Source: a virus. Taken from it: DNA of 58,320 bases. The stretch is taken from the IMG/VR virus record IMGVR_UViG_3300033149_003373, positions 1 through 58,320 of that record; one strand, written 5' to 3'. Below the pieces are notes generated by a model, which was not told the DNA's origin, ran no database searches, and saw only the letters and a program-made list of their open reading frames with translations. Both the position numbers and the translations under genes were made by a program. How positions within the stretch are numbered: position 1 is the first letter of the stretch; each line of letters starts with the position of its first letter. Positions 30,414 to 52,410 of this stretch are shown here, in pieces.

Positions 30414-31031
30414 TTAACTCCATAGTTGACCTAGAGATGTTACACCCAATGATGCAAGACTTAATGTTGTTGTACCATCACTTGATTGCCATTTTATGTT
30501 TGGATTCCCATCTTTTGTGTATGGTGCTACTATAAATTTTGCTGTACATTTTAGTAGTCCATCTGTAAATGAAACCTTTGAAGATGTCAATCTGGCATTA
30601 AGTACAATTAATCTCCTTGCTGTACTTCCTATACTTACTGCACCATTGCCAGCAGTTACACTTGCTTCATCAGTCCACATTATAGCTAATCCATATTTTT
30701 CCCTGTTTCTGCTTACATCAGATTCAAGAGGTTCTGTACTGTCCCAATTAGTATCTGTTGTGTTAAATAATTGTTCCATGCCAAATGCTTTGTCTGAACC
30801 AACTACTGTATCAATACTTGTTGGATAAAGTTCTACTGTAATTGTTGTTACTTCTTCTGGACCTAATTTTTCAACTCTTCCACCTGACAGTGTAGCTACA
30901 TATTCTACTGGTTTGTCTCCTTGGTCAATATCAATAGTCTCAGTTGAACTAACAAAGTCTATACTTGCACCGCCTACTGGTGCTACTGAAACCAAAGCTA
31001 ATCTTGTCCATGAACTTGGAAAATCTGCCAT
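30414..31031 (-). CDS. Major tail tube protein
   Basis: 205 residues, beta-rich, with SIDFVSSTETIDIDQGDKPV near the start, EVTTITVELYP in the middle and a C-terminal LKCTAKFIVAPYTKDGNPNI. Size, beta-sandwich pattern and place between the connector/terminator genes and the chaperones fit a tail tube subunit. ATG 31031 follows GTGATAGGA. Confidence 0.65.
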   Translation of the reverse strand: MADFPSSWTRLALVSVAPVGGASIDFVSSTETIDIDQGDKPVEYVATLSGGRVEKLGPEEVTTITVELYPTSIDTVVGSDKAFGMEQLFNTTDTNWDSTEPLESDVSRNREKYGLAIMWTDEASVTAGNGAVSIGSTARRLIVLNARLTSSKVSFTDGLLKCTAKFIVAPYTKDGNPNIKWQSSDGTTTLSLASLGVTSLGQLWS

Positions 31032-31062
31032 TCCTATCACCTTTTATTTACAAGGAACATTA

Positions 31063-37916: not shown

Positions 37917-40088
37917 TTATTCATCTGAAACTACCATTCTAGCGATTGCATCAGCATGTATTGCAGATGATGCATATGCCATAGACAATTTCATTCGGAC
38001 TTGGTCAGTTGATGGGAAGTCAAATACAGTTATCTGAGGTTTCAAGCCAAAGACTTGAGCACTGCAAACTCCTGCTTTTACCATTCCACAAAGATGTCCT
38101 GTGACATCCATTGTTACATTGCTTCCAGCAACATCAATATATGTATTTGTTGTTGCGTCAAATCCAGGAACCTTAGTTGTGCTTACAACTTTTACGTCAA
38201 GGTATTTGCCAATTTCTCCGTTCAGAACTACTTCATTACTTCCGTATTCTGCTGCGTTTGTAAATTGTGTTTCGTTCTGAAGTGCTTCTTCCTGCTCTGG
38301 TGCCATGAAGAAGACGAATGGCTCTCCTGGTGTTGGTTCCCATGCATTCTTTGCTGTTCCAGACAGTGTCCATGTGTTTGAGTTCCAGTAATAACCTCTT
38401 GTTGACATCAAAAGTCTTCTTGCTTTCTTGAACATCTCTGTTGTTAGGATGTCTCCTGAGTCAAGGCTACTGTTTGCATTTGTTGCATCTCCACCAAATA
38501 TTGTTTGTGCACCTCTTACAGTGTTTGTCATTGCTGTAGGTTCGGTGGCTGTTCCAGACGTTGCTGTTCCAAGAACTGCATCTCTTATGTTTGAATCTAT
38601 TGAGTTTTCGTGTTTGTATGCTAATTCTTCTCTCATATACTGGATTTGGTTAAGGGCACTTGTTCTTATTGCATGGTTGGATATTGCAATACCATAGTTC
38701 AGTCTTGTTGGAGTTATTTTCTTGCCGTCTGCTGTATCTGGGTCTGTCCAATCTATCTCGCTTCCAGCAGCAAATTCTGCTGTTGAAGATTCCCAGCTTG
38801 AGTCATCCAGATATGTTGTCCTATAAGGAACTACTATTTCGTTATTTCCAGTAGGAATTGTATACTGAGTGGCTACTTGTGCAAATCTCATCCTTTCTTT
38901 TGCTGCATCAATTGCCTTTCTTAGGAATTGAATTGGCTGTAATGGATAAGTTGCTGCAGAAAACTGAGTACCTCTTACAGTTGATGTTGTAGTTGCTGTA
39001 GCAGATAGTTCAAAGTTTCTTAGTCCGAGTGGGTTTGTCTTAGGTTGCATACTGAGTTCAAGAACAATAGGAGAACTAAGTCCTCCGCCTTGTAGATACT
39101 CTAACATTCCAACATCTACATCTTCATATCCTGTTGCATTTACTTTTGTTGGAGGAGTTGCTTCTGGATTCATGGAAACTTTGTTTCCTTTTTCTCTTGC
39201 AGCAAGTTTTTGTTCTACAATTTTCTCGATATTTTTCTCATTCTGCATTAGATTCCACGCCTTAAGAACTTCTTTGAATGAAGCATCTGGGTGTGCCTTT
39301 AAGAAGGAATTAGCAAAAGAAGAATAATCAGAACTTAACATGCCGTTTTCTTCAAACTTTTTTATCATTTCAGCGTGTTTTATTCTATTTTCTTCTGCAT
39401 CGTAATCTCTTTTAGATTTGCTGCTAACAACTTCAACTTTAGGTTGAAGTGCCTCTTTAGTTTCCTCAGTTTTTGGTTCCTCAGCCTTTGGTTCTTCAGG
39501 TTTTGGTTCTGGCTTTGGTTCCTCTTTTGGTTCTTCAGGTGTGGTTTCTGGTGTTTCGCTAGGCTGTTCGTCTAATTTTTCTGTGTTCATTATATCACCT
39601 ATATTTTGCCTAAGTATGAAAAAAGTGTTTGGAATTAAATCTACTCCTTTTTGTACTTTTGATGAATTTAGAAATGTTGTCTGACATGCTGGTTCAACAA
39701 CAAGAGACCAATTTTCAATACTAAAATTCTTTACACTTCCATTACTTCCTTTTCCAAGTATCTTCGGGCTTATTCCAAATTTTGCTCCAAGAAGAAGTGC
39801 TTTTTGTGCTTCTGAATTTGAAATTAATAAATCACCAATAATTGAATTTTCATCTAAACGAGGATTTTCTACTTTTCCTATGAAGTTTTTAGCTAATGTA
39901 TCCTGATGGTCAAAATAAAGATACCTTGTTTTTTCATTATCCCAGTCAGTTCTTTTGAAAGCTTCTGAAAGTTCATAATCATCATAAAACCAATCATTCC
40001 ATACTCCGCTTGACATTATTGGATGATTCTTTATTTTAAGAACTTGAATTCCATTTATATTTTCCAAACTAAATTTTCTATTATTCAT
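37917..40088 (-). CDS. Prohead protease-scaffold-major capsid polyprotein, 723 aa
   Basis: Residues 1-165: S78-like prohead protease, with YFDHQDT (His61), GISPK (Ser107) and an ENWSLVVEPA acidic/strand block (about 124-134). Residues about 167-330: Pro/Glu-Lys linker and helical scaffold-like region. Residues about 340-723: HK97-fold capsid protein with QVATQYTIPTGNNEIVVPY, a DWTDPDTADGKK strip and late PGEPFVFFMAPEQ. An in-frame ATG at codon 167 has its own GGTGATATA, so a shorter scaffold-capsid product is likely too. Confidence 0.8.
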   Translation of the reverse strand: MNNRKFSLENINGIQVLKIKNHPIMSSGVWNDWFYDDYELSEAFKRTDWDNEKTRYLYFDHQDTLAKNFIGKVENPRLDENSIIGDLLISNSEAQKALLLGAKFGISPKILGKGSNGSVKNFSIENWSLVVEPACQTTFLNSSKVQKGVDLIPNTFFILRQNIGDIMNTEKLDEQPSETPETTPEEPKEEPKPEPKPEEPKAEEPKTEETKEALQPKVEVVSSKSKRDYDAEENRIKHAEMIKKFEENGMLSSDYSSFANSFLKAHPDASFKEVLKAWNLMQNEKNIEKIVEQKLAAREKGNKVSMNPEATPPTKVNATGYEDVDVGMLEYLQGGGLSSPIVLELSMQPKTNPLGLRNFELSATATTTSTVRGTQFSAATYPLQPIQFLRKAIDAAKERMRFAQVATQYTIPTGNNEIVVPYRTTYLDDSSWESSTAEFAAGSEIDWTDPDTADGKKITPTRLNYGIAISNHAIRTSALNQIQYMREELAYKHENSIDSNIRDAVLGTATSGTATEPTAMTNTVRGAQTIFGGDATNANSSLDSGDILTTEMFKKARRLLMSTRGYYWNSNTWTLSGTAKNAWEPTPGEPFVFFMAPEQEEALQNETQFTNAAEYGSNEVVLNGEIGKYLDVKVVSTTKVPGFDATTNTYIDVAGSNVTMDVTGHLCGMVKAGVCSAQVFGLKPQITVFDFPSTDQVRMKLSMAYASSAIHADAIARMVVSDE
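39588..39599 (-). promoter_or_regulatory. Internal ribosome site and start within the capsid polyprotein
   Basis: On the minus strand GGTGATATAATG: the SD at 39599-39594, three bases, then ATG at 39590-39588, in frame with the whole gene (codon 167). This equals the start signal of separate genes here. It would yield a 557-residue protein beginning MNTEKLDEQPSETPE without the protease. Confidence 0.65.
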
Positions 40089-40154
40089 ATAAGAATATTA
40101 CCTTAAGTTGTTCTTATATGTAACATTATTCCTTTGTTTATTTAAAAAATATAA

Positions 40155-41081
40155 TTATACAGGATGATTAGAACTCATTTTCTCTAAATAGTTATAAACT
40201 GTTTTCATGCTTAGGTTTAGTTTTTTACTTATATGTTTTATAGAGCACGTTTTTCTTAAATTATATATTTCTTCCATTTGCTCTATATTTAATTTTGGCA
40301 TTGCACCTGGTCTTAAGAATTTTACAAATTTCCATTTATTATTAGAATCTTTATAAAGTCTGAAATATCCTTCTATTGAAAAATTTCTAGATGATTTTAA
40401 AACAAGTATAATTCTATTTTCTCCAAATGAAGATACTGAGTAAATTCCATTTGATAATATTTTATATTCTCCATCTTTGTTTAATCCTTCAAAAAACATC
40501 CATTCTTTTGACTGAGGATGTTTAAACATGATATTATCATTTTCTTCGGATATTGCTATTCCTTCAACCATTCCGTCAAGATTATTATTTTCAAATATTT
40601 CTCTTGCGTTTTCATAACTCATTATTTTTTTAGAAAAGTCTTTTGGTATGAATAATCTCAAATCTTTATGAGTAGTATTATCTTTTTTATGTTCTTGAAT
40701 AACAAAAGGCATCCATAATTTATGCTTATGTATTTCTCTTATTTTGTTAAATAAGTTTTTTGAAACATCTATAGAATCTGTTTCATTTCCTTCTCGTTTT
40801 AAATTGAATATTCTTATTTCAGTAAAAACGACAGAATCAGAAGAATCTAAATTTTTAATTATGCATGAATTTATGTTATTAAGTTCAAATATAGATGAAA
40901 AGGTTTTTTTAAGTTCTTCTTTTTTAAATACCAGACTATATGGTGCTGGAAGTATATTTTCGTCATATTTTAATTTATTAAGAAAAACAACATCATCTTT
41001 CTTTAGAAAGTTTCTTTTTTTGAGTTCAAGATTACAAACAATTCTTTTTTTGAGTTCAAGATTTATTGTATCATTCAGCAT
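40155..41081 (-). CDS. LigD phosphoesterase-like domain plus HTH, head-module protein
   Basis: 308 residues. FVIQEHKKDNTTHKDLRLFI (126-145) matches the F-V-Q-H------H-DLRL signature of DNA-ligase-D 3'-phosphoesterase domains; GEYKILSNGIYSV, RIILVLKSSR and IEGYFRLYK continue as in that fold. The last 40 residues are a resolvase-like HTH (QMEEIYNLRKTCSIKHISKK). Phage head genes are known, from memory, to carry such LigD-like domains. Whether it cuts, binds or only builds is unknown. ATG 41081 follows GTGATAAAA. Confidence 0.6.
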   Translation of the reverse strand: MLNDTINLELKKRIVCNLELKKRNFLKKDDVVFLNKLKYDENILPAPYSLVFKKEELKKTFSSIFELNNINSCIIKNLDSSDSVVFTEIRIFNLKREGNETDSIDVSKNLFNKIREIHKHKLWMPFVIQEHKKDNTTHKDLRLFIPKDFSKKIMSYENAREIFENNNLDGMVEGIAISEENDNIMFKHPQSKEWMFFEGLNKDGEYKILSNGIYSVSSFGENRIILVLKSSRNFSIEGYFRLYKDSNNKWKFVKFLRPGAMPKLNIEQMEEIYNLRKTCSIKHISKKLNLSMKTVYNYLEKMSSNHPV

Positions 41082-41913
41082 TTTTATCACCTATAGATTC
41101 TAATGTAGTTGTATCAGCCTGTTTTATTACAATTTGAGATAATTCATTTAGAAGGGTTTCTAGTTTTTCTATTTTTTCATTTGTCTTTTCAAATATGGTA
41201 TTGAAAGTATTGTTTTTAGAAATATTCATTAATTTAATTTCATCTAATTTCTCTTTAAGGAGAGTTTTCTGCTCAGTTGATATTTTACCAGATAATGAAA
41301 ATATTTCTTTATTTATTTCATTTATATTTTCATTTACCTTTTCTTTCATATCTGTAATTTCATTAGTATATTTCTGCATCTGATTAGGTCTTTCTTCCAT
41401 TAATACTTTCATCATTAAAACATCCTTCTTTATTTTACCTGTCATTGAAGACAAATCATTAATTGTTCCAATATTTTCAATTGATATAGAATCTATTTTA
41501 GTTTTAAGATTTGATATTGCATCTATTATATTTTTCTTTTCATCAGTTGTCCATATATCCTTTATTATTGTTTTTCCACTTACAACAGGTCCTCCTGAAG
41601 CTGCTCTTTTAAAGAAATTCATTCTTACTACCTGAAATGATTCAGAACCAACAGCACTTGTTCCATCAGAATATGATGCAGAAAATTTGGCAATATAATT
41701 TGTTTCATCTGAATTAGCAGCTACAAAATGTTCATAATAATAAAGAGTTCCAGAAACTTGAGTCATATTTTCACTAGATACATCATTAATTACAGAATTA
41801 TTGAAATGATAAATATCTATAGTCGGAGTTCCAGATATAGTTGCTTCTTCCCCATTTTGTGCAAGAAAATGTGCATACAAAACTATTTTTGAATTTCGTT
41901 CAACTATTGTCAT
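41071..41913 (-). CDS. Ig-like plus coiled-coil virion protein, 280 aa
   Basis: N-terminal beta sandwich (IVLYAHFLAQNGEEATISGT, TIDIYHFNNSVI, SGTLYYYEHFVAA) of the kind seen in fibre or baseplate proteins, a short linker, then a coiled coil from about residue 125 to the end. The layout suits a trimeric fibre shaft or whisker. Overlaps the next gene and is coupled to the previous one (ATGA). Confidence 0.6.
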   Translation of the reverse strand: MTIVERNSKIVLYAHFLAQNGEEATISGTPTIDIYHFNNSVINDVSSENMTQVSGTLYYYEHFVAANSDETNYIAKFSASYSDGTSAVGSESFQVVRMNFFKRAASGGPVVSGKTIIKDIWTTDEKKNIIDAISNLKTKIDSISIENIGTINDLSSMTGKIKKDVLMMKVLMEERPNQMQKYTNEITDMKEKVNENINEINKEIFSLSGKISTEQKTLLKEKLDEIKLMNISKNNTFNTIFEKTNEKIEKLETLLNELSQIVIKQADTTTLESIGDKNAE

Positions 41914-51936: not shown

Positions 51937-52410
51937 TCACTCAACTCCTCTCTTTTTGAATATGGTATTTAAAACATCTTCATAAATTACTAATCTATTT
52001 TTTCCTAACGCAACATCATGATACATTACTTCATCAAGCTCTTGCTTTAGAGAGGAGATGGCTTGTTTCTTTGCTGTCATTTTAATAGCTTCCATAATTT
52101 CACCATCAGGACATATATGAAGTTTTGGTTGACCACAAACACAAATTTCAAAAGTTTCTCTTTTTTCTTTAGTTACTATATGCCATAAAATTTTCTTTTT
52201 TTCTCCTTTTTTTTGTGCAACTAAACCATCATTATAAAGTAATTTTAAAGCAGTTGTAACATAAGATATTGCTGAACTTCTATACCTTAATTTTTTTACA
52301 ATATCAGAAACTTCTGTCCAAGTATTCCCCTCTCTAAGTATTTTCAATATGTCATGTTTCAAAACATCAACACTTCTCTCTTTGTCTTTGCATTCTTTTT
52401 GTTCAGTCAT
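51937..52410 (-). CDS. MTEQKEC-family winged-helix regulator, 157 aa
   Basis: Starts MTEQKEC, then a winged helix (VLKHDILKILREGNTWTEVS, VTTALKLLYNDGLVAQKKGE), CVCGQPKLHIC (zinc-like) and the AISSLKQELD helix shared at DNA level with the 52511 gene. The 3' end reads FKKRGVE. It is probably a regulator; the shared ends show recent duplication between these cassettes. Confidence 0.65.
   Translation of the reverse strand: MTEQKECKDKERSVDVLKHDILKILREGNTWTEVSDIVKKLRYRSSAISYVTTALKLLYNDGLVAQKKGEKKKILWHIVTKEKRETFEICVCGQPKLHICPDGEIMEAIKMTAKKQAISSLKQELDEVMYHDVALGKNRLVIYEDVLNTIFKKRGVE

Follow-up and report, generated by a model that had tools for sequence, protein, structure and literature searches.

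How many proteins are made from a gene that carries a protease, a scaffold, and a capsid protein in one reading frame? The question is raised by a single open frame of 723 codons from its ATG (37917-40088, minus strand) in the window, by which we mean the whole 58,320-base virus record analyzed here, which also contains terminase, portal, and tail-like genes. An earlier note had described the frame as a protease, a scaffold-like linker, and a capsid protein, and the open reading frame, homology, and structural models all bear out this three-part anatomy. The explanation that we favor, and consider likely as a whole, is that two nested products would be made from the one gene and that the internal start behind the shorter of them would be older than the fusion.

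The N-terminal part of the frame, residues 1 to ~146 (39651-40088, minus strand), aligns to the annotated prohead protease of the Altiarchaeum virus Altivir_8_HURL. His61 (39906-39908, minus) and Ser107 (39768-39770, minus) are invariant, being unchanged across 19 aligned sequences. The AlphaFold2 model of this part (pLDDT 89) has T4 gp21 as its best PDB match (probability 1.00, E 1.6e-3, TM 0.60-0.62), and the next structural matches are herpesvirus proteases. An HMM search of the protease part returned no match, and neither NCBIfam NF045541 nor the HK97 prohead protease model matched the window protein at an E of ≤1. Alignments and model together point to an assembly protease with its catalytic residues intact.

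The remainder of the frame consists of two modules. The scaffold module, residues 167 to ~336 (39081-39590, minus strand), was delimited by alignment to the scaffold of the relative L038; it is charged and rich in Glu, Lys, and Pro, and its C-terminal EDVD..M..Q motif is common to the relatives. Repeated Lys-rich, KKKYPYPE-like motifs occur in the scaffolds of L038 (3420-3540), L065, and L039. Residues ~337 to 723 (37920-39080, minus strand) form an HK97-fold major capsid protein, as judged by a match to phrog_1357 (8.7e-12), 58% identity to the L038 capsid protein, and a model (pLDDT 69) whose Foldseek matches to phage capsids have E values of 1e-11 to 1e-8 at a probability of 1.00. By alignment with L038, a product that begins at Met167 is predicted to be an N-terminal scaffold domain fused to an HK97-fold capsid protein.

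No close relatives emerged when single proteins or a two-sequence alignment served as the query. The family was instead reached through the capsid motif QFTNA.EYG, searched as a degenerate pattern, followed by a profile search and then a search for a window-like motif, and it comprises 51 distinct protease-scaffold frames, including that of the window, plus L098. Genome bins place L093 in Nanoarchaeia, L095 in Methanosarcinales, and L096 in Omnitrophota, and archaeal promoter features are present in many relatives; the hosts of many members are probably archaea. In all 50 of the other distinct relatives the capsid gene is separate from the protease-scaffold gene, often with an ATGA overlap, and the split always falls at the position matching fusion residue ~336. 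A search for a fusion among these 50 found none, leaving the window as the only one.

Twenty-odd codons past the protease domain, the stretch GGTGATATAATG (39588-39599, minus strand) sets GGTGAT (39594-39599) before the ATG of Met167 (39588-39590), with a predicted pairing to the 16S rRNA tail of -9.0 kcal/mol. The earlier note had recognized this as the signal that starts separate genes, and we agree: the window has 27 copies of GGTGANNNNATG, where shuffles predict 1.26, nearly all of these copies are at ORF starts, and the Met167 site is a near-perfect copy of this gene-start consensus. Only two GGTGANNNNATG sites lie deep within a frame, at 39590 (169 codons in) and at 52095 (106 codons in). 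Because roughly one match of this kind would arise by chance in each window, the Met167 site alone is modest evidence, and the RNA structure around it is not unusual. What makes it convincing, from the comparison of sequences, is its location at a domain border together with its recurrence in relatives.

Two further observations concern gene starts in the window. The second deep match, GGTGAAATTATG at 52095, lies 52 codons before the stop of the frame at 51937-52410 (minus strand) and is possibly another nested start or a chance match. In addition, ORFs called with a GTG start (40155-41090, 30414-31040, and others) often begin at the ribosome site's own GTG (e.g., GGTGATAAAAATG), when the ATG three codons downstream is probably the real start. 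The first of these, on the minus strand just upstream of the fusion, encodes 311 amino acids with a C-terminal helix-turn-helix (weak matches) and is an unusual neighbor for head genes.

For the family, frames were clustered at 70% identity, giving 39 clusters with the window included, and pairing to the 16S rRNA tail was scored before each in-frame ATG between protease and scaffold. Of the 39 clusters, 27 (window included) had at this border a site that reached at least -8.4 kcal/mol in strength ahead of an in-frame ATG, at a threshold that was picked after the data had been seen and with the window (-9.0) and L038 (-8.5) among the weaker sites. At a stricter line of -10, which both of these just miss, sites preceded 23 of 169 in-frame border ATGs. 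Other long ORFs on these contigs had them before 5 of 489 ATGs (Fisher 2e-10 against the border), and in the +1 frame of the border they preceded 3 of 166. The site is written in varied codon phases (AAG GAG GTT, AAA GGA GGT, and GGT GAT, read as the peptides KEV, KGG, and GD), so it is the nucleotides that recur. GGTGAgtctATG occupies the equivalent place in L038 and L098, the closest relatives, and in L020 and L019, where DUF6582 is inserted between protease and scaffold, the internal site comes after the insert, at the scaffold border. Such DUF6582 inserts precede the internal scaffold start in several relatives (L020:10657-12123; L019:6730-8103, minus), and L019 adds a zinc-ribbon-like stretch.

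Conservation of the site in relatives, which the earlier note had proposed as a check, held for these 27 clusters and failed in the other 12, which lack a strong site and include the second-closest relative, L039. The internal start thus appears to be common in the family and not universal. Synonymous-codon shuffling gave 15.5 clusters expected against the 27 seen (P about 0.08 for the window alone), in what is a weak test here, explaining much of the signal, since the choice of amino acids at the border helps to write the site and the shuffles therefore keep many of them. As a whole, the comparison of relatives is strong evidence that Met167 is a genuine second start.

If Met167 is a start, the other starts available to the gene become relevant. 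Among the remaining ATGs in the fusion, the best ribosome sites reach only -6.7 and -5.6, and none is a good start for the capsid alone. We considered an independent capsid start near Met306 and rejected it, as it has a weak site (-5.6) and the scaffold motif extends beyond it.

At the first start, the protease ATG has no ribosome site in most relatives, and usually a TATA-like box lies about 27 nucleotides upstream of it; the box falls 20 to 34 nucleotides upstream in 25 of 37, compared to between 0 and 9 for equally sized bins elsewhere. The window has the TATA-like TATAAG at 40113-40118 (minus strand), 25 to 30 nucleotides upstream of its first ATG, and the same hexamer is common to the window, L038, and L039 at about -25 to -33. 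With this spacing, transcription would begin at or near the ATG, and translation of the protease is probably leaderless or nearly so. A second TATA-like match lies further upstream in the window, and given this match a short leader on the window transcript is possible. We weighed AAGGTAA, which precedes the first ATG, as a candidate for a conventional ribosome site and set it aside; it is weak (-4.6) and, if TATAAG is the promoter, would probably lie upstream of or at the transcript start.

We propose, then, that this tailed virus, probably of an archaeal host, makes two nested proteins with a shared C-terminus from one gene. Initiation at Met1, on an mRNA that probably has little or no leader, would give the full protease-scaffold-capsid chain, and initiation at the strong internal ribosome site of Met167 would give a scaffold-capsid protein without the protease, equivalent to HK97 gp5. 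Since the capsid protein, the most abundant protein, has only two plausible starts, a poor or leaderless Met1 and a strong Met167, the full-length chain would be the minor product and the scaffold-capsid chain the major one. The earlier note's picture of a few protease-bearing copies and many protease-free capsid chains is thereby amended: comparison favors the second start at Met167, whereas the protease-free chain would be scaffold plus capsid and not capsid alone, and its few and many we infer from the strengths of the starts. Both chains could co-assemble through their shared scaffold and capsid parts, and the protease may be carried into the prohead in minor amounts and afterward cleave the scaffold away. 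The internal start would be inherited. It is present in relatives with separate capsid genes, where it would have to make free scaffold, and so appears to be older than the fusion; ancestors would have made free scaffold from a protease-scaffold gene, behind which the capsid gene was later fused.

The frame could instead encode a single polyprotein, translated from Met1 only, that places a protease on every capsid subunit and frees protease, scaffold, and capsid by self-cleavage. Protease-capsid fusions do exist in actinobacteriophages (PMC9671004) and have an NCBIfam model, NF045541; in one of them, L097, the internal site at Met166 is weak (-5.8), and the frame in the window is continuous. 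A polyprotein does not account, however, for an internal site that so closely copies the gene-start consensus, nor for the recurrence of the site at this border in most relatives, where the capsid is not even fused, and we regard this alternative as unlikely.

Two nested products that both end in a capsid protein presuppose that the fusion itself is genuine. In L038 the scaffold ends in ..EDVDEAMAQFIQKNFLGLPIG-stop and the capsid starts with GGTGATttaaATG GAAAATGG; the same stretch of the window reads ..EDVDVGMLEYLQGGGLSSPIVLELSMQP, with no stop, ribosome site, or ATG. With these elements gone, the nested product would become an HK97-like scaffold-capsid protein. The fusion is known from one metagenomic record, and it could be a sequencing or assembly artifact in a virus that really has separate protease-scaffold and capsid genes, as all 50 other distinct frames are split and in L065 just one in-frame stop parts the two. 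Against this, the sequence on either side of the junction stays in register with the relatives, with only ~6 divergent residues and no out-of-frame stretch, and one base error cannot explain the joint absence of stop, ribosome site, and ATG; we consider an artifact very unlikely. L065 itself had seemed to be a second fusion, because BLAST had run through its in-frame stop, and is split. A hairpin at the junction (GGAGGAC-TTA-GTTCTCC) was discarded, being no more stable than shuffles (z +0.8).

We give the least credence to the remaining alternative, in which GGTGAT-ATG at Met167 arose by chance or from amino acid or codon bias in a charged linker. It can draw on the match expected by chance in each window, the second deep match at 52095, and the many sites that survive synonymous shuffles. 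Against it stand the greater frequency of such sites at this border than in other ORFs or in the border's other reading frames, the varied codon phases, and the motif that L038 and L098 share at the equivalent position.

Parts of the nested arrangement that we favor have precedents. A scaffold start within the protease gene is known from Mu and has been reported for the Mu-like PaMx73 (PMC4378225), and lambda C and nu3 overlap (PMC11739229). In lambda C/Nu3 and in Mu, an in-frame ribosome site and start likewise follow the protease domain and yield a scaffold with the same C-terminus, a layout that the split relatives fit; as in those phages, the internal start of the window appears to be a scaffold start, and an old one. 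Unlike in lambda and Mu, the shared C-terminus of the window also holds the capsid, with no separate downstream capsid gene, the hosts of many family members are probably archaea, and the first start looks leaderless. At the sequence level, no similarity to proteins of lambda or Mu was detected.

HK97 gp5 and T5 pb8 have a scaffold fused to the capsid N-terminus (PMC10275583), like the predicted Met167 product, which gives a 1:1 ratio; the HK97 protease, however, is encoded by a separate gene, whereas that of the window is an N-terminal extension of the same frame. The actinobacteriophage fusions and NF045541 (L097) resemble the window in having protease and capsid in one frame, but in the window the scaffold is longer and the internal start strong, compared to a weak one in L097, the one case checked. 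The protease-scaffold and capsid proteins of Altivir_8_HURL (BK059162) are homologous to those of the window (26-28% identical). Its two genes are separate, however, and its equivalent internal ATG has no ribosome site. In herpesviruses, UL26/UL26.5 gives nested protease-scaffold and scaffold products with a shared C-terminus from nested transcripts, and the capsid protein is separate. The nested layout is similar and the protease fold similarity weak, but the window would use an internal ribosome site and has its capsid fused. In a limited search of open papers, we found no published description of this combination or of such a device in archaeal viruses.

Our fullest reading is that two kinds of start would set the dose, with a leaderless start giving the protease chain and an internal ribosome site giving the abundant scaffold-capsid chain, and that a capsid was fused onto an older nested protease/scaffold gene in poorly known archaeal viruses; we hold this combined statement to be evenly poised between right and wrong. 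A scaffold start of the lambda/Mu type within the protease gene appears to be widespread in a little-studied group of tailed viruses, several of them probably archaeal, and the fusion shows how an HK97-like scaffold-capsid protein could plausibly evolve from separate genes. As gene callers give only the long frame, the main structural protein of the window virus would be misannotated. A leaderless first start combined with an internal ribosome site would be a simple and testable rule for dosing an assembly protease.
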